DNA of 34,101 nt, from the NCBI GenBank assembly GCA_015231955.1, contig JADGAN010000049.1, positions 1 to 34,101 of the forward strand, given 5' to 3'. Below the pieces are notes generated by a model. The model did no database searches and was not told the DNA's origin. It worked only from the letters and a program-made list of their open reading frames with translations. This DNA is from Oligoflexia bacterium. GTDB lineage: Bacteria > Bdellovibrionota > Bacteriovoracia > Bacteriovoracales > Bacteriovoracaceae. Positions 27,711-34,101 of the stretch are shown in pieces. The position numbers were made by a program, and so were the translations under genes. Every line of letters begins with the position of its first letter. Positions within the stretch are counted from its first letter, which is position 1.

Positions 27711-28397
27711 AAGCTCTTCATTGATTTTCTCCTGAATATTGCTTTAAGTGGTGTTGCTGGCAACATAAGAACAACTGTAAACCATCCCTTCTTTTCTCCT
27801 ACCAAGCAGACTTGGGTAGACGCCAAAGACCTGCAAGTTGGCGATCAATTGCTGACAATAGATAAGAAAATTGTCACGGTTTCAAAGATTGAAGATGAGT
27901 ATGGGGAGTTTCCTGTATACAATCTTCATGTAGATAAGAATAATACCTACTATGTTTCTTTGGATGGGGTGCTTGTTCATAACTGTGGAGGTAGCGCTAG
28001 AACAGATGCGGTTGAAACAGTAGCAAGGCATGCAGATGATATTGTAAAAATTGGAAGGGACAGTGGTTTTTCAAATGTGATATATCCTAGAGGACAGGGT
28101 GCTTCGACACTTCCAGCACCGTCTGGGTATACTAAAGTTAGTCGTTGGATAAATGAATCAGAGTCAAAAATGTGGGTTGAAGGTGGGGGAACTCATATCC
28201 CTACAGATGTTGGAGCTGGCGGAAGAGTATATGTGACTTCACCAGGGGCACCAAAACCTGGAGGAACAGGATCAATTAGAGTTGATTTTTATGTCCCAGA
28301 GGGAATGCTTCAAAAAGCTGGTAATGAACAATGGTTTCAAATTATGCAACCTCAAGCCAACACACCAATATACAATGTAGAAATATTTAAACCATAG
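27711..28397 (+). CDS. Orphan polymorphic-toxin tip: partial Hint domain plus C-terminal toxin domain
   Basis: The open frame runs from a stop at 27708 to 28397 without a good start codon (TTG 27849 is the first reported). It begins in the middle of a Hint (intein-like) domain: VNHPFFSPTKQTWVDAKDLQVGDQLL (27777-27854), then YNLHVDKNNTYYVSLDGVLVHNC, where the HN/C junction (27981-27986) is the typical Hint C-terminus. The N-terminal half of the Hint, with its nucleophile, is absent. The following 137 residues are a toxin domain (VSRWINESESKMW, GRVYVTSPGAPKPGG, RVDFYVPEGML, NTPIYNVEI). It reminds me of TreTu-type ADP-ribosyltransferase tips, which is a weak recollection. A candidate immunity gene follows after 7 bases. 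Confidence 0.65.
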   Translation, partial: KLFIDFLLNIALSGVAGNIRTTVNHPFFSPTKQTWVDAKDLQVGDQLLTIDKKIVTVSKIEDEYGEFPVYNLHVDKNNTYYVSLDGVLVHNCGGSARTDAVETVARHADDIVKIGRDSGFSNVIYPRGQGASTLPAPSGYTKVSRWINESESKMWVEGGGTHIPTDVGAGGRVYVTSPGAPKPGGTGSIRVDFYVPEGMLQKAGNEQWFQIMQPQANTPIYNVEIFKP

Positions 28398-28404
28398 GAT
28401 ATTT

Positions 28405-28692
28405 ATGAAGAAAAGTGTTCGCATAACAAATTTTTATGGATTAGTAATAAAAAGATCAGCAATAGACATGCTACCTATTTCTATAAAAAAAATAGATGAA
28501 GCTATGGAAATGAAGCCTCTTGATATAAATGAACAACTTATTTCTTATGGACCTAGTTTTGGTCAGGAAGCTGCTGATGAATTTATACGCAGGCTGGAGA
28601 GTCTAGGATTAAAGCATATTGATGATTTTTTTGTTTTTGAAGGTGATTATCCTGATTGGATATCTTTTAGTGCTGAACTCGCAAAAGATTAA
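28405..28692 (+). CDS. Candidate immunity protein for the toxin tip
   Basis: The 95-residue acidic, soluble protein is of unknown family. It begins 7 bases after the toxin stop, with AGGAT before the ATG. Its size, lack of signal peptide, acidic C-terminal half (HIDDFFVFEGDYPDWISFSAELAKD) and position directly after a toxin tip fit an immunity protein. This is an inference from context. Its AT content and use of ATA codons resemble the toxin fragment and differ from the upstream chromosome. Confidence 0.6.
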   Translation: MKKSVRITNFYGLVIKRSAIDMLPISIKKIDEAMEMKPLDINEQLISYGPSFGQEAADEFIRRLESLGLKHIDDFFVFEGDYPDWISFSAELAKD

Positions 28693-29110
28693 GGAATTGC
28701 TTGGTTTTGCATTGTTATTTTTGGGATAAAATCAACTGCCAAAAAATACAAAAAATCCACAAAATCCAAAATATCCCTTGCTTTTGATCCTATCGCCACT
28801 TTGTCGCCAAAAAATCCAGAAAATTCAAGGAATCTAAAAAATCCACTCCTGTTTTGGTGTTTAGGAGTCGCGGCCTTTTTCTCTTTGCATAACATTTTTC
28901 GCCTTCAAATCGGCACCAAATATCGGCCTTCACTAACCATCGCTTGATGGAAAAAGGAAATCGTGGCGGCGGCCCTGCCAGTGAAGATCAATTTTTTTTA
29001 TTTAGAAGATCGGCTATGGAATTGTTGATGGTAGTCTGCTTATGTTTTGGGCGGATTTAAGTTGTCTTATCTTACGAAGTGCCGCCCGTCGCAGTTCGTC
29101 GCTAAAAATC
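28693..29110. other. Gene-poor AT-rich stretch with A-tract repeats
   Basis: I see no convincing gene here. Between 28739 and 28841 are two blocks of A-tracts at about 9-10 base spacing with the recurring words AAAAAATCCA and AAAATCC, which would make the DNA intrinsically curved. A GAGTCGCGGCCTTTTT word at 28865 recurs, with one change, to the right of the reverse transcriptase locus. A minus-strand frame of 68 codons covers 28689-28895 but is dominated by the repeat and is probably chance. Confidence 0.4.
28865..28880 (+). repeat. Left copy of GAGTYGCGGCCTTTTT
   Basis: GAGTCGCGGCCTTTTT here matches GAGTTGCGGCCTTTTT at 32191-32206 in all but one base. Both are followed within 15 bases by a CATAA word. 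They lie on opposite sides of the AlpA-RT locus in the same orientation and may mark its ends. Confidence 0.45.
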
Positions 29111-29111
29111 G

Positions 29112-29195
29112 TGCAATTGATTGCAGATTTTTTTCCATAAAAAGTTTTGCAATCAATTGCAAACTTTCCGATTTCTATTTTTGCAATCAATTGCA
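29112..29195. repeat. Three copies of the 14-mer TGCAATTGATTGCA
   Basis: The 14-mer lies at 29112-29125 and, in inverted orientation, at 29148-29161 and 29182-29195. The first two copies can form a perfect 14-base stem with a 22-base loop; spacing is 34-36 bases. The two inverted copies lie within or at the 3' end of alpA. A degenerate fourth copy is at 32157-32170 beyond the RT locus. These may be protein-binding sites or attachment-type core sites. Confidence 0.65.
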
Positions 29196-29389
29196 ACATT
29201 TCTTCTGCTCAACAACAACTCATCAACTTCATTTTCGATCCAGCCAAATCGTCTATGGTCAGGAGTTAAGCTAATTCGCTCTGGAAAATCGCTATCTCTC
29301 ATTAATTTGAGAACTGTGTTCATGCTCAAAGAAGTTTTCTTTGCAGTCTCTTTGAGTTTGATTATTCTTATTTGTTTATCTTGATTCAT
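29153..29389 (-). CDS. AlpA-type DNA-binding regulator
   Basis: The 78-residue protein looks like the AlpA/CP4-57 regulator family: IIKLKETAKKTSLSMNTVLKLMRDSDFPERISLTPDHRRFGWIENEVDELL, i.e. a winged helix with the P-x-R/I-x-L turn and a final W-x-E-x-E-V helix. Such proteins control excision genes in mobile elements. The start chosen is ATG 29387-29389, with AAGGG just upstream, rather than the ATG 11 codons earlier. It is divergent from the reverse transcriptase gene. Its 3' end is made of the TGCAATTGATTGCA repeats (NVAIDCKNRNRKVCN), so the tail may be acquired. Confidence 0.75.
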   Translation of the reverse strand: MNQDKQIRIIKLKETAKKTSLSMNTVLKLMRDSDFPERISLTPDHRRFGWIENEVDELLLSRRNVAIDCKNRNRKVCN

Positions 29390-29407
29390 GTTGATCCCTT
29401 GATAAGA

Positions 29408-29446
29408 GCTATGATAAATCATAGCATATTTTGCGAGTGAAGATAA
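29408..29446 (-). promoter_or_regulatory. alpA promoter with palindromic operator
   Basis: GCTATGAT-AA-ATCATAGC (29408-29425) is an inverted repeat with 8-base arms. On the minus strand its TATGAT can serve as -10, with TTATCT 17 bases upstream (29441-29446) as a poor -35. The palindrome over the -10, just upstream of the alpA ribosome binding site, suggests autorepression and possibly control of the divergent RT gene. Confidence 0.45.
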
Positions 29447-29463
29447 GATTAAAATTTCAAAAA

Positions 29464-29628
29464 ATGCGAATGAAATTGAACGCTAAAAATAAAAAACATA
29501 TTCACAGAAATCATCATCAATTAATTGCTCCGAAGGCCGCACCTCTTGAAGTTGAATGCCAATATCGCAATGATCTTCAACGAACAATTATCTTTATTGA
29601 TAAGGGGAGACAATCCTCAAGAGCATGA
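29464..29628 (+). CDS. Probable N-terminal part of the reverse transcriptase (other frame)
   Basis: This frame (ATG at 29464; open from a TTG at 29431) encodes a basic segment ending in EVECQYRNDLQRTIIFIDKGRQSSRA. The part QRTIIFIDKG resembles the first finger strands of reverse transcriptases. The RT frame downstream has no good start codon and is shifted by one base. Skipping one base at GGGG (29604-29607) gives TIIFIDKGDNPQEHEERKRL, which joins smoothly. I therefore read it as the 5' part of the same gene, broken by a one-base shift, sequencing error or programmed frameshift. Confidence 0.45.
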   Translation: MRMKLNAKNKKHIHRNHHQLIAPKAAPLEVECQYRNDLQRTIIFIDKGRQSSRA

Positions 29629-30433
29629 GGAACGGAAAAGATTGCATCAATACTTGGCCGAGCGTATTGGGAAGTATATCCATCCAAATATTTATGGAAG
29701 TCTTGCTGGTCGGAGTGCTACCGATTGCATCCTTAACGTTATCATCGGAAAAGTCATCAACAAGAAAACCATTTTGAAATTGGATGTAGCGAAGGCATTT
29801 CTCAATGTTGATGTCTTTCGCCTGGCCAGTTTATTGAAGCGATTTTTTGCAAAGGCCGCGATTCCCGAAGAAGAACAGAATGCTCTTATCAATCAAATCT
29901 TTCGCCATTTTGAAGTCAAGAATGGTAAGGGAGTTAGGTTTAGAGGGTTAGCTCAAGGAGATATTCTCTCAAGTCTTTTGTTTTCGATCTTCATGACTCC
30001 TGTCTTTAATCGCTTTGGAAGGCGATATAAGGTCTTTGGGTATGTGGATGACAACCACATCATCCTTGATAAGAAGGAGGATGCCATTGCGGCAGAGGAG
30101 CATTTCATTGAATGTCTTTGCCGCAATGGTTACTATCGAGAGGATGAGGTTGGCAACATTTTAGGAAATCGCCAACTTTTCTTAAATGATGATAAAAGAG
30201 GACTGTCGGCACCCGATGAGGACACTTCTGTTCTCGGATTAATCATCACCAAAGATTTTCAATTACTACCAAGGCCTGACAGATCAATCAGCACCTTCCT
30301 TGATCGTGCGGATAAGATTTCAAAAAAATTGTTCAAAATGAAAATGAATGATCCAAGTGTTGGTTACTACAAGTTGCTGTCAAATCTAGAAGCAATTTCT
30401 TATAGGAGAGGAGTCGCGGCCTCTAATGGATAA
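29525..30433 (+). CDS. Reverse transcriptase, unassigned bacterial lineage (YVDD)
   Basis: The 302-residue frame carries a complete RT core: motif 2-like IYGSLAGRSATDCILNVI; motif A KLDVAKAFLNVDVF (first catalytic Asp); motif B RGLAQGDILSSLLFSIFMTPV; motif C FGYVDDNHIIL (two catalytic Asp); motif D/E LFLNDDKRGLSAPDEDTSVLGLII. Motif B has GDILSS in place of the usual G/S-x-L-SP. There is no maturase or HNH endonuclease domain as in group II introns, no retron NAxxH/VTG pair that I can see, and the SQ form of motif B seen in DGRs is absent. The start is unsettled: TTG 29525 follows a stop, and the N-terminus probably lies in the frame starting at 29464. The last 8 bases overlap the next gene (ATGGATAA). 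Confidence 0.85.
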   Translation: MLRRPHLLKLNANIAMIFNEQLSLLIRGDNPQEHEERKRLHQYLAERIGKYIHPNIYGSLAGRSATDCILNVIIGKVINKKTILKLDVAKAFLNVDVFRLASLLKRFFAKAAIPEEEQNALINQIFRHFEVKNGKGVRFRGLAQGDILSSLLFSIFMTPVFNRFGRRYKVFGYVDDNHIILDKKEDAIAAEEHFIECLCRNGYYREDEVGNILGNRQLFLNDDKRGLSAPDEDTSVLGLIITKDFQLLPRPDRSISTFLDRADKISKKLFKMKMNDPSVGYYKLLSNLEAISYRRGVAASNG

Positions 30434-30617
30434 CACAATGAATACATCTACACATTTTGATGTTTGGGCCGCGACTAAAAAAGAGATCGCAAGAAGTGGA
30501 TTTGAGCATGAGTACGATGATTTCTTGAGGTTACTACTGTTTTCTCAAAACCATAGAGACGATTCTCTGTTCAATCCAGAAGGTGCAGGAAAACTCTTCA
30601 CTCACACATTTTCGTAA
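30426..30617 (+). CDS. RT-associated unknown protein, N-terminal fragment
   Basis: This 63-codon frame starts at an ATG overlapping the RT stop (ATGGATAA), with GGAGAGGAG 13 bases upstream, a typical coupled arrangement. The product (THFDVWAATKKEIARSGFEHEYDDFLRLLLFSQNH) is helical and unfamiliar. It stops at TAA 30615-30617, but the next frame, open since 30557, continues without a good start. A -1 shift at TTTT (30609-30612) gives GKLFTHTFFVNEDRSPLGRL and a protein of about 400 residues. I take both frames as one gene. Confidence 0.5.
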   Translation: MDNTMNTSTHFDVWAATKKEIARSGFEHEYDDFLRLLLFSQNHRDDSLFNPEGAGKLFTHTFS

Positions 30618-30658
30618 ACGAAGATAGATCACCTCTAGGCCGCCTACACACCCTCCAT

Positions 30659-31630
30659 TTGGCCTACAGATGGTTAAGCACCTTGGATCGAGTATGGAAA
30701 GAAGGAAAGGAAAAAACGATTTGGGATTTGCAAGGGCAAGTTCTTCAAGGCAAGTATAAGCGGCCCTCGGATTTAATTGTTCAAACCTATATGGATGAAA
30801 CCGCTTCCAAGGCCCTAGACCTCTACCATTGGTCAAACTCAAGCACAATTGCTTTGGAGAAGGCCATCAAGAACTATGCTTATGCCATTCATAGGAATCG
30901 AAGAGAGGATGTTATCCTTGGTCGCTTTGACTACCTCAAAAAAGAGTTGGCCGCAAGATTCATTCACTTTGCACCTTTCCCCACAATTAGCAGAGAATTT
31001 AGAAATCCCCATTATATGATCGCTACCGATGGAAAATATTTTAAAGGCAGCAAGAAGCTCAAAATTTACGATGGTGAACTTTCATTTGATCTTGGATTTT
31101 CCGCTCAAAGAGAGATGAAATTTGAATTTGGTGATGAGTTGATGAATGCAACCACACTTTACTTCAACGAATTGAAGGCCATCAATAATTTTTATTTTCC
31201 CTTAACCACGATTAATCTTTCAGAAGCATACCTCACTAGAGGGCAAATTCAGGTTGTTTTGAGAGGCAATGCCCTAGAGAAATACTTTTCTTATGGAGTA
31301 ATTCCCCACTCACCAATCAAATTTAGCGATGAGATTTGCTGGATTGTCGGCCATGTAAAAAAAACAACATTGGAAGTTTTGGAGGTGATAAGGGCCTTTG
31401 TGGAAGAGGTGAATGCAAAAACATTGACCAAAAGCAAAAAAGGCCGCGACTCTCTCCCTAAAAAATTCATGCTCCTAATGAAAAGAAAATGCGGCCTAGA
31501 TGTAAGAGTAAACTCCACCATAAGGGAGAGGATCGGCGGCCGCCTAGAGAATATTGAACGAGAAGAACAATACAGGATTAGAAGGGGAACGCTGACGCAC
31601 TCAAAAAGTTCCTCGGCCGACGGTTATTGA
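30659..31630 (+). CDS. RT-associated unknown protein, main part
   Basis: The frame is listed from a TTG at 30659 but is open from 30557 and has no ribosome binding site of its own, so it is probably the body of the gene that starts at 30426. The 323 residues listed are soluble, basic and mixed alpha/beta: an N-terminal helical region (YRWLSTLDRVWKEGKEKTIW), a middle part with strand-like segments (NPHYMIATDGKYFKGSKKLKIYDG), and a Lys/Arg-rich C-terminus (KKFMLLMKRKCG). I recognise no domain. Its tight link to the RT suggests a partner (nucleic-acid binding or effector), which is inference. The structured non-coding region starts after it. Confidence 0.5.
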   Translation: MAYRWLSTLDRVWKEGKEKTIWDLQGQVLQGKYKRPSDLIVQTYMDETASKALDLYHWSNSSTIALEKAIKNYAYAIHRNRREDVILGRFDYLKKELAARFIHFAPFPTISREFRNPHYMIATDGKYFKGSKKLKIYDGELSFDLGFSAQREMKFEFGDELMNATTLYFNELKAINNFYFPLTTINLSEAYLTRGQIQVVLRGNALEKYFSYGVIPHSPIKFSDEICWIVGHVKKTTLEVLEVIRAFVEEVNAKTLTKSKKGRDSLPKKFMLLMKRKCGLDVRVNSTIRERIGGRLENIEREEQYRIRRGTLTHSKSSSADGY

Positions 31631-32087
31631 AAATAAAGGCCGTTCAATTAAGTCGGCCGCGCTCTTTAACAATTGAATACTAGTGATTGCAATTGCCTTG
31701 ATATTTAGTTTGATTAGGTTTTCACCAAAAGAACTTATCAGTGCATAGTTTACATAACAATTTCATCTATGAAATTAACTTTGTTCTGGCCACAAATCTA
31801 ATATCGCTCTTATGCAAATATAGGAATGATGGAGGTTAGGTATGGCCAAGAGGCAAAGTTAATACTTAAAGAATTGCTAGTTTGAGAAGAATGAAACGTC
31901 TTTTGTCCTTTGGTGATTTCATCACCGCCATGTTTTGTTCGTTCTTAGAGGGATGATTATCGTTGGGCCATTACATGGCCAGGATCATTTTCCCCTTTAC
32001 GCTATTGGGATTATTTCCTGTGGGTGTTATTGCCGACCTCAAGGGTCGGGCAGTTCTAGAGCACAAATGTAGTTAGAGTTTTCATTC
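31631..32087 (+). ncRNA. Candidate structured RNA downstream of the RT operon
   Basis: This stretch has no coding frame I trust but several local hairpins: GGTGAT-TTC-ATCACC (31912-31926); GGCCA-TTACA-TGGCC (31966-31980) enclosed by ATGAT/ATCAT (31953-31957, 31984-31988); and CCGACC-TCAAG-GGTCGG (32033-32049). An intrinsic terminator follows at 32088-32128. The concentration of stems before a terminator, on the RT strand, suggests an RNA, perhaps the RT template or primer. A possible promoter is TTAACT and TAATAT 18 bases apart (about 31774-31803). Without comparison to homologues, this remains a candidate, and a simple 3' UTR is the alternative. Confidence 0.4.
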
Positions 32088-32128
32088 GGGAAATCGACTT
32101 TTGAAATTGGGTTGGTTTCCCTTTTTTT
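32088..32128 (+). terminator. Strong intrinsic terminator
   Basis: GGGAAATCGAC (32088-32098) pairs over 11 positions (two G-T wobbles) with GTTGGTTTCCC (32111-32121), followed directly by seven T (32122-32128). It ends transcripts coming from the RT operon or the candidate RNA. Confidence 0.75.
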
Positions 32129-32156
32129 ATTAGGATTTATTTATCAAGAAAAGTTC

Positions 32157-32170
32157 TGCAATTGATTGTA
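32157..32170 (+). repeat. Right-hand degenerate copy of TGCAATTGATTGCA
   Basis: TGCAATTGATTGTA matches the 14-mer at 29112 in 13 of 14 positions and is followed, like that copy, by a short spacer and a run of T. Being in the same orientation on the far side of the RT locus, it could be one end of a 3.05-kb unit. Confidence 0.45.
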
Positions 32171-32208
32171 CATATTTTTTTTGGGGGAGAGAGTTGCGGC
32201 CTTTTTTG

Positions 32209-32298
32209 CGTTTCATAATCAGTTGTCATGTTAACGTTTCATAAAGGTCAGCGGTGAACGTTGCATAAACCTCATGCCGCCATTTGTGTAACGTTTCC
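32209..32298. repeat. Direct repeats of CGTTTCATAA
   Basis: CGTTTCATAA occurs at 32209 and 32235, CGTTGCATAA at 32259, and a partial CGTTTCC at 32292. The spacing of 24-33 bases (two to three helical turns) and the nearby recombinase relic suggest recombinase-binding subsites. No gene is visible at 32129-32271. Confidence 0.5.
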
Positions 32299-32361
32299 TC
32301 TCAATTCTCTGTGGATGGTTGCGGCCGAACATCCGTACGGCGAAAAAATCTTTCGCTCGAG
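32272..32361 (-). pseudogene. Relic of a serine recombinase C-terminal HTH
   Basis: The minus-strand frame reads LERKIFSPYGCSAATIHRELRGNVTQMAA and stops at 32272-32274. It aligns without gaps to SYRKIAELAGCSAATVHRELKES in the intact recombinase at 33099-33728, with GCSAAT-HREL identical. No recombinase catalytic domain lies upstream, so this is a fragment left by duplication, recombination or decay. Confidence 0.6.
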
Positions 32362-32385
32362 AGTTGATGTCTAAACAATTCTTTA

Positions 32386-32807
32386 TTATTTTTTGAATCG
32401 GGAAATAAACTGTGCTGGCGATTCTATTTTCACACCTTGGACAGAAATAAGCGGCAGTAGATGTTTTTTATCGCCAGTAACGAGAATATCGCATCCAGCA
32501 TTGATAGCGACCTCTAAAACCAAATTATCTTTAACATGAGATATAATTTCCATGTCTCCCACTGGAACAAAGAGTGATGCTACATTTTTGAGGTCATCTA
32601 AGACAGTAGAGACTTCACTTGGAGATAATCCCAATTTTGAAACAAGTTTCCCTGACACTTCTGATATTATGTTAGTTCCTAATACTAGATGGTATTGACG
32701 AGAGAGTGCCATCTCTAATAATCGTAGAGGCAAACCACCAAATACGATTCCAGAGATTATAACATTTGAATCAAGGCAGACTGTGAAAGGATTTTTGATT
32801 TATTCAT
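32386..32807 (-). CDS. PIN-domain toxin (COG1569-like), frame broken near its 5' end
   Basis: The 3' frame encodes a PIN domain: LGTNIISEVSGKLVSKLGL, VKDNLVLEVAINAGCDILVTGDKKHLLPL. Such toxins are Mg-dependent RNases. The frame lacks a usable start: its first ATG/GTG/TTG would delete the first catalytic Asp. However, an ATG (32805-32807) overlaps the antitoxin stop in ATGAATAA; adding one A in the run at 32792-32796 gives a protein starting MNKSKNPFTVCLDSNVIISG, with the expected D-x-N. So the gene is either a recent pseudogene, needs slippage, or contains a sequencing error. Confidence 0.65.
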
Positions 32808-33012
32808 CGAAATCCTTCATGGTGAGGCCCTTGTTCTTTGCCTTGCTAGATGCTTTCTTGTGAAGGGAGTGCAATCTTTTTTGGGCCATATACTGTCGAA
32901 AAGTTTCTCTTAAAAGTTCAGATATAGTTCTCTGTTCTTCTTTTGCAACTTTTTCAATCTCTTTCCCCATCTCGGAGGGAAGAGATATAGTAATCGTTTT
33001 TGCGGATGGCAT
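32800..33012 (-). CDS. Ribbon-helix-helix antitoxin (CopG-type)
   Basis: The 70-residue protein has the RHH pattern KTITISLPSEMGKEIEKVAKEEQRTISELLRETFRQYM: one strand, then two helices. The Lys-rich C-terminus (HKKASSKAKNKGLTMKDFDE) would wrap and inhibit the toxin. It starts after AAGGAG and its stop overlaps the start of the PIN toxin gene, the classical antitoxin-toxin order with coupling. It probably represses its own promoter upstream (33013-33098). Confidence 0.75.
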   Translation of the reverse strand: MPSAKTITISLPSEMGKEIEKVAKEEQRTISELLRETFRQYMAQKRLHSLHKKASSKAKNKGLTMKDFDE

Positions 33013-33098
33013 GAAAACTCCTTGGAAGTAGGGTAAGAAATAATCTTAATTTATCTTATCCTACAAATTCACTCCGTTCAAGGGTTTTTATGCAAAAA

Positions 33099-33728
33099 TT
33101 ACGCAGCGTCCTTGCTACTATCCTTCCCGTTAAAATAAGATTCTTTTAGCTCCCTATGTACAGTCGCGGCCGAACATCCGGCCAACTCCGCTATCTTTCT
33201 ATACGAGAGGCCCTGAGCGGCCAAATTTTGGATTAGAAGAGATTGCCTTGATCTAGGCCGTCCTAACTCTGCTCCCTTTGCCTTAGCGTTTATAAGGCCG
33301 TTTTTAACCCGTTCTGCAATGAGATCACGCTCAAGGGTAGCAATGGCCGCGATGATAACAAATACCGCTTTGCCGATGGCAGAATTGGTTTCGATCTTTG
33401 CACTCAAACTTATAAAGGCCACACCACTTGCTTGAAACTCGGTCAGCGCGGCCAAGAGATGTTGAGTGCTTCGGGCGAAGCGAGAGAAGCTATAAACGAT
33501 CACGGCCTCAACTGTGTTGCCCCTCACATCTTCCATTAGCTTATCCAGTTCAGGCCGCAATCCCTTAGTTCCCGATATGCCAGCGTCCTCGTAGCAACGA
33601 TAATTTAAGATGCCGTTATCATCACAATATTTGATTAAGGCCCGTCGTTGGGATTCCAGACCACTGTCTTGTTTATCGGTGCTTGTCCGACAGTAGAGTG
33701 CTATGTGCTTATCTGGTTTGTTGCTCAT
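33099..33728 (-). CDS. Serine recombinase (resolvase/invertase family)
   Basis: The 209-residue protein has the small-resolvase layout: catalytic Ser16 in ALYCRTSTDKQDSGLESQ, the arginine-bearing YSFSRFARS region, the long helix ERDLIAERVKNGL, the linker KGAELGRPRS, and a C-terminal helix-turn-helix GLSYRKIAELAGCSAATVHREL. It catalyses site-specific resolution or inversion. The start is the ATG with GAGGGGG 5-6 bases upstream (an earlier ATG at 33782 lacks one). It appears intact. A relic of the same C-terminus lies 0.8 kb away at 32272-32361, and it is next to a broken tyrosine integrase. Confidence 0.9.
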   Translation of the reverse strand: MSNKPDKHIALYCRTSTDKQDSGLESQRRALIKYCDDNGILNYRCYEDAGISGTKGLRPELDKLMEDVRGNTVEAVIVYSFSRFARSTQHLLAALTEFQASGVAFISLSAKIETNSAIGKAVFVIIAAIATLERDLIAERVKNGLINAKAKGAELGRPRSRQSLLIQNLAAQGLSYRKIAELAGCSAATVHRELKESYFNGKDSSKDAA

Positions 33729-33753
33729 ATATCCCCCTCTTGAAATAACTAAA

Positions 33754-33997
33754 TTAAAAATCAAATGGTGATGGATCATCAATGCTGATTGATTTCAAGT
33801 GTCCGTACAAGTCGATGGTGAGCTGTACTGATCGGTGCCCTAAAATGCTTTGGATTTGGTACATCTTCTTGCCCTTCAACAAAGCATTGTAGCAGAACGA
33901 GTGCCGCAGATCGTGCGTACGCCACTTCTTTTGGTGTATTTATTCAGCGTGATTTGAGAAAAAAATGAGCTAAGGCCTTAAAATAGTTCTGGGCCTC
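33754..33997 (-). pseudogene. Tyrosine recombinase (phage-type integrase), C-terminal remnant
   Basis: The minus strand encodes KKWRTHDLRHSFCYNALLKG and then ILGHRSVQLTIDLYGH before a stop at 33754-33756. This includes the box II H-x-L-R-H and G-H-R signatures and the catalytic Tyr of DLYGH. Upstream, the sense continues in other frames (SQITLNKYTK, then EAQNYFKALAHFF), with shifts at AAAA and at a run of seven T. The N-terminal half is missing. This is a dead integrase, probably of the original island, truncated on the right. Confidence 0.7.
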
Positions 33998-34025
33998 TTA
34001 TTGTTTTTATAAGATACTACCGATT

Positions 34026-34101
34026 ATGACAGTAGGAAGTATCAATATTGAAGAAACAATTAAGAGCGTACAAGAGCAATTAAAGAGAGATCGAACAGTT
34101 T
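34026..34101 (+). CDS. Start of a possible IS66-type transposase (cut by window end)
   Basis: Only 25 codons are visible: MTVGSINIEETIKSVQEQLKRDRTV. The pattern of an acidic helix followed by a basic one resembles the N-terminus of IS66-family transposases, but it is too short to be sure. No clear ribosome binding site or inverted repeat is seen. An insertion here would explain the truncated integrase. Confidence 0.3.
   Translation, partial: MTVGSINIEETIKSVQEQLKRDRTV

Follow-up and report, generated by a model that had tools for sequence, protein, structure and literature searches.

The question raised by this locus is whether the hairpin-rich stretch that follows a reverse transcriptase (RT) operon is a functional non-coding RNA and, if so, whether this RNA works with the RT. 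The DNA analysed (positions 1-34,101 of contig JADGAN010000049.1 of an Oligoflexia bacterium; 34,101 nt, hereafter the window) had been given a first-pass annotation in which the gene-free interval 31631-32128 was described as several perfect hairpins with a terminator, all on the RT strand, and was regarded as the best candidate for the template or primer of the RT.

The RT gene (29464-30433, plus strand; Pfam RVT_1, 1.1e-16), which encodes a YVDD motif, gives a read-through product of 322 aa, the open frame as listed being 29525-30433. It forms an overlapping two-gene plus-strand operon with ORF2 (30426-31630), which encodes an orphan protein of ~401 aa and whose start overlaps the RT stop. 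An AlpA-type regulator gene (29153-29422, minus strand; Pfam Phage_AlpA, 4e-10) is divergent from the RT gene. The RNA region lies behind the operon on the RT strand, 30 nt from ORF2, and no promoter-like site was found between the two. Convergent to the RNA region on the minus strand are a toxin-antitoxin pair, i.e., a PIN-domain gene (32386-32820; Pfam PIN_3, 7e-7) and a small antitoxin-like gene (32800-33012), and a serine recombinase gene (33099-33782; Pfam Resolvase, 4e-41). To the right of the RNA, at 32206-32295, the motif CGTTKCATAA occurs three times and once inverted in an iteron-like arrangement, a count (one mismatch allowed) that was reached in none of 100 shuffles. At 27849-28692 there is a fragment of a polymorphic toxin (HINT, TreTu-like C-terminus), behind which comes a small gene, possibly for immunity. 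At the right edge of the window there is the truncated tail of a tyrosine integrase gene, interrupted by the start of a multi-copy IS-like sequence (33936-34101) that is repeated at many contig ends.

Single-base frame breaks were found in the RT at a GGGG run near 29605 and in ORF2 at a TTTT run near 30610, both genes being otherwise open, and in the PIN gene at AAAAA near its start (near 32800). The PIN break is identical in a second contig of the same genome, C11, and the housekeeping genes of the window are intact. Since RT and ORF2 each carry such a break, the system in its present copy is possibly, or even probably, decaying, with sequencing error in the homopolymers as the alternative.

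The RNA region is unusually well folded. Its core (31774-32122) reached -119.8 kcal/mol on the RT strand, with z = -5.15 against dinucleotide shuffles and none of 100 shuffles as stable; the opposite strand gave z = -2.86 and the larger interval 31631-32135 gave z = -4.99. When 26-33.7 kb was scanned, plus-strand-biased stability was found at 31601-31950 (z -3.3) and 31951-32300 (z -4.5), and the sole comparable window, 29851-30200, lies inside the RT gene and is equally stable on both strands. The hairpins described in the first-pass annotation are all present: a perfect 8-pair hairpin AATTTCAT/ATGAAATT at 31759-31776, GGTGAT/ATCACC with 7 pairs at 31911-31927, GGCCAT/ATGGCC near 31966-31980 and CCGACC/GGTCGG near 32034-32050. 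The terminator and its T7 run (32122-32128) are also there, but the stem, described as having 11 bases, is a 13-pair stem including G-U pairs (32088-32121), its 11-base version being strictly complementary at 82% and hence not quite perfect. Four terminator-like sites were found against 3.4 expected, so that the terminator would be unremarkable by itself; what stands out is the fold as a whole. The longest ORF in the region has 45 codons, and a protein-coding reading was rejected on this ground and on the indels of 28, 9 and 1 nt between the two copies of the RNA compared below.

The region can be divided into a leader and six domains. The conserved core is 31774-32122, so the interval originally delimited holds for the core but not for its first ~140 bases (31631-31770), which belong to the leader. 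D1 (31774-31863) is a long imperfect hairpin, D2 (31886-31947) is a stem with the inner hairpin GGTGAT/ATCACC, D3 (31948-31995) is a hairpin with a GGCCATTACATGGCC tip, D4 (31996-32028) is variable, D5 (32029-32070) is the hairpin CCGACC-TCAAG-GGTCGG, and D6 (32071-32128) is the 3' end with the intrinsic terminator, all on the plus strand.

A second copy of the RNA was found on C11 (L004:9449-9832), matching 31777-32122 of the window. The two copies are 86% identical outside gaps, with 47 substitutions in 346 aligned bases and four gap openings, and the conserved parts are D2, D3, D6 and a portion of D5. D4 is a length-variable region: the alignment is longer by 38 columns in the C11 copy, and this extra sequence is built of short GGTTATT-type repeats (L004:9668-9750 against window 31996-32030). 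The C11 copy begins 13 bases behind nuoN, its 3' end joins the PIN gene via the common string TTTCCCT, and no RT or ORF2 was found near it. The antitoxin and recombinase genes come after the RNA in both loci, and on C11 the PIN and recombinase genes are both truncated. The toxin-antitoxin stretch (32646-33060 against L004:9825-10240), including the antitoxin-like gene, is ~99% identical between the loci while the recombinase stretch is ~87-89% identical, and because of this difference the loci are mosaics. As a side observation, the ~99% identity between flanks of 86-89% could be read as recent exchange or homogenisation.

In the recombinase overlap between the loci, dN is 0.040 and dS is 0.443, and the RNA has diverged by ~0.14 per site, i.e., 0.24 in D1 (24%, the most diverged domain), 0.11 in D2 (11%) and 0.04 in both D3 and D6 (4%). 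Because the ~14% of substitutions in the RNA compares with a synonymous divergence of 0.44 in the adjoining recombinase gene, the RNA is probably under purifying selection, an estimate that assumes that RNA and recombinase diverged together even though the loci are mosaics. The two-copy consensus fold reached -88.3 kcal/mol; copies simulated without constraint gave -72.7 +/- 6.5 kcal/mol, and 5 of 500 of them were as good. In this consensus, 85 pairs are unchanged, 12 are changed on one side, two are changed on both sides and none is broken, the fold having been chosen on the same sequences. No domain was individually significant with folds taken from the window alone and two sequences, and since there are only two sequences, proof by covariation is impossible here.

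The leader carries a boxA antitermination signal, GCTCTTTAACAATTGAATA (31661-31679, plus strand), of the type present in the rRNA leaders of the family. It is directly preceded by a GC-rich hairpin, CGGCCGAC/GTCGGCCG (31614-31659, plus strand), in a boxB-like position. With up to two mismatches, the 19-mer was found in 47 of 76 genomes of the family, often ~100 bp from contig ends, and a reversed-pattern control gave only a few matches. In both loci checked (L028 and L038) the order is tRNA, boxA, 16S rRNA, and from this placement the GCTCTTTAACAATTGAATA class is the rrn boxA of the family. An rrn boxA is necessary and sufficient for formation of the Nus complex (PMC10250234), and for this reason the simplest reading would be that the RNA is a long untranslated transcript shielded from premature termination. 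Boxes of the rrn type were also seen near integrase or helix-turn-helix operons of relatives (L007:1501-1542, L008:1501-1522 and L042:1501-1519), in L007 and L042 with a GC-rich hairpin in front; it is possible that boxA serves as an antitermination signal of integrative elements in the family. The locus thus resembles an rRNA operon leader in having the rrn-type boxA of the family, a hairpin before it and a long untranslated structured RNA after it, and differs in lacking any rRNA or tRNA and in lying behind an RT operon.

Taken together, the fold, its strand bias, the second constrained copy, the boxA leader and the terminator make it well supported that the region is a functional structured non-coding RNA of ~350 nt (31774-32122). 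The candidate named at the outset thus stands as an RNA, but what ties it to the RT as template or primer is position, and the expectation that the region would be conserved together with the RT was contradicted by the sole other copy, that of C11, which lacks the RT, a sample of one.

Relatives of the RNA were sought widely. Rfam gave nothing at gathering scores; relaxing the threshold to E 10 brought up only unrelated families whose scores were far below cut-off. A DNA search of 291 genomes of the phylum returned only the two own copies, plus boxA. A covariance model (R1) run over 369 genomes of the phylum gave one further match (G261, E 0.02, 27.5 bits), which was rejected as a probable chance hairpin because of its poor alignment in D3. 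Exact RNA motifs were absent from viral contigs, and the matches in plasmids were rejected as chance.

The RT is likewise isolated. Its model scores were 44 bits for CRISPR-RT, 42 for generic RT, 36 for group II, 29 for UG26 and 27 for UG21; the best NCBIfam match was the group II intron RT/maturase at 36.4-36.5 bits against a cut-off of 300, and Drt3a gave 20 bits against a cut-off of 200. No retron model was among the RT matches in PADLOC, NCBIfam and PHROG. The RT is an orphan whose nearest relatives, weakly, are group II intron and CRISPR-associated RTs. No relatives were found in 369 genomes of the phylum at E up to 1e-8, and none was confirmed by peptide patterns in 84,980 species genomes or in viral contigs, these pattern searches requiring short exact motifs that distant RT relatives could escape. 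The choice of patterns was steered by artificially varied RT copies, which are not data. Plasmids and phages gave only distant group II-type RT matches of ~25% identity. For ORF2, neither Pfam nor PADLOC (E up to 10) gave a match, nor did plasmids or phages, and there was one marginal PHROG match of unknown function (E 0.02). Single-sequence AlphaFold models of RT and ORF2 had a pLDDT of 36. No homologous locus with RT, ORF2 or the RNA was found elsewhere in the genome, plasmid and viral searches.

An RT with a nearby ncRNA is, as a general kind, well known from DRT2, DRT9, DRT10 and retrons. Class 2 DRT systems (DRT2, DRT9/UG28, DRT10/UG17) are similar in having an RT gene with an adjacent structured ncRNA on the same strand, a YxDD active site and an extra operon protein, as SLATT in DRT10. 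They differ in that the RNA here is downstream of a second gene and is ~350 nt long against 137 nt in DRT10, that the RT matches UG models weakly (UG26 29 bits, UG21 27 bits) and that ORF2 is unrelated to any known partner. Assignment of the RT to a defined UG/DRT group was rejected on these UG scores and that of Drt3a. Retrons also combine an RT with a neighbouring structured RNA, and an inverted repeat surrounds the RNA here; however, the retron msr-msd, which has flanking a1/a2 repeats and a priming branch G, usually lies upstream whereas this RNA is behind the RT operon, neither a retron RT model nor an Rfam family was matched, and the inverted repeat here spans the terminator and coding sequence. 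A group II intron RT/maturase is the best NCBIfam match of the RT (36.5 bits, cut-off 300), but maturase profile coverage does not extend past the RT part and the RNA lies outside the gene. A group II intron was rejected, as cmscan of 28600-34101 at E up to 5 found no intron family and no domain V and the RT fell below cut-off. A diversity-generating retroelement was also rejected; differences between the two RNA copies affect all four bases (T, G, A and C) alike, with no adenine bias, and the RT motif is QGD/YVDD. The present RNA, RT and partner protein are outside all catalogued groups tested.

Repeats surround the unit. The direct repeats 28865-28892/32191-32218 (82%) and 29104-29134/32149-32179 (81%) flank AlpA, RT, ORF2 and the RNA, and across the 5.6 Mb genome there are exactly three occurrences of the 16-mer GAGTYGCGGCCTTTTT, all within this unit. 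These repeats mark AlpA-RT-ORF2-RNA as a discrete unit, in the manner of element ends. The direct repeats (28865-28892, 29104-29202 and 32149-32218) contain GAGTYGCGGCC-T5 and TGCAATTGATTGCA palindromes. In addition, a 36-nt plus-strand segment within ORF2 (31430-31465) is 89% complementary to one beyond the terminator (32178-32213), so that a long inverted repeat surrounds boxA and the RNA. Its 5' arm is ORF2 coding sequence, KSKKGRDSLPKK, and its 3' arm, on the minus strand, reads similarly as KRKKGRNSLPQKK; the inverted repeat may have arisen by inverted duplication of part of ORF2.

Whether the RNA is the partner of the RT is a separate matter, and we propose it tentatively as the best reading, at somewhat less than an even chance: the RNA would serve as scaffold and template (or primer) within an integrative element, where what we infer is that it is co-transcribed with the operon, is bound by the RT and is used as template, and what ORF2 does. 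The structured ~350-nt RNA (31774-32122) would belong to the element and would probably be transcribed together with RT and ORF2, as the 3' portion of their transcript. The boxB-like hairpin and the rrn-type boxA would load Nus factors, allowing the polymerase to cross the untranslated stretch, and the terminator (32088-32128) would set the 3' end. By analogy with the ncRNAs of defence-type RT systems, the RNA would most likely associate with the RT and act as its scaffold and template (or primer), and ORF2 would be the partner protein. The supported parts of this proposal are the fold, the constraint, the family boxA and the terminator. In favour of the partnership, the RNA lies on the RT strand behind ORF2, the RT domain has the YVDD motif, and DRT2, DRT9 and DRT10 systems regularly have an ncRNA associated with the RT (PMC12483538, PMC12632851). 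On the other hand, the other RNA copy is without RT and ORF2, the frames of RT and ORF2 are broken, only two pairs changed on both sides, no homologous locus was found that would show co-occurrence, and the RNA lies behind the second gene. In DRT2 and DRT9, by contrast, the ncRNA directly precedes the RT, and in DRT10 it precedes the SLATT gene (PMC12483538, PMC12632851). A fuller version, in which an unclassed RT, an orphan protein and a 350-nt RNA, antiterminated by boxA and enclosed by the long helix, would form a new RT-ncRNA system with the RNA partly copied into DNA by the RT (perhaps in D4), is considered quite improbable.

The likeliest rival reading, though in itself rather unlikely, is that this genuine RNA is part of the mobile element of the PIN/antitoxin and serine recombinase genes, as a regulatory or insulating 3' structure with the RT as a chance neighbour. 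C11 keeps the RNA beside the same PIN, antitoxin and recombinase genes without an RT, and the occurrence of boxA near integrase or helix-turn-helix operons of relatives suggests that the leader may be an element-wide antitermination device. However, C11 is a truncated remnant, cut at both RNA ends and inside the PIN and recombinase genes, so loss of its RT by deletion is as likely, and the RNA runs on the RT strand, convergent with the toxin-antitoxin genes. The breaks at homopolymer runs in RT, ORF2 and PIN, together with the IS-like sequence on the right, the integrase truncated there and the polymorphic-toxin fragment nearby, could instead point to a dead relic whose RNA was once functional and is now unused here. 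We regard this as unlikely, as there is only one break per gene with the rest open at full length; sequencing error is possible at the breaks, though the PIN break is common to both contigs, and the RNA copies keep their constraint relative to dS, though this reflects their past. Finally, the helix 31430-31465/32178-32213 could close around boxA and the RNA and release it like a pre-rRNA, comparable to a leader-trailer helix or to retron a1/a2. Its RNA duplex has -53.6 kcal/mol and 32 matches out of 36, whereas 200 shuffles gave no more than 28. Of its pairs, 26 are found in the minimum-energy fold of 31420-32225, and rrn operons are known to combine boxA with a long helix enclosing the RNA (PMC10250234). 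Yet the intrinsic terminator precedes the 3' arm, the 5' arm codes for part of ORF2, the direct repetition of the arm in a third copy at 28865 points to a repeat dispersed over the element, and one other 900-nt window among 60 on the contig likewise reached 32 matches; we regard such release as very improbable.

Should the RNA be the partner of the RT, none of the catalogued retron and DRT groups tested would accommodate the pair, ORF2 would be a partner protein from no known family, and the RNA itself seems to be guarded by rRNA-type antitermination; such a system would widen the known range of bacterial RNA-templated DNA synthesis. An RNA without ties to the RT would still be an undescribed structured RNA of an integrative element, for which boxA gives a concrete lead on transcription.
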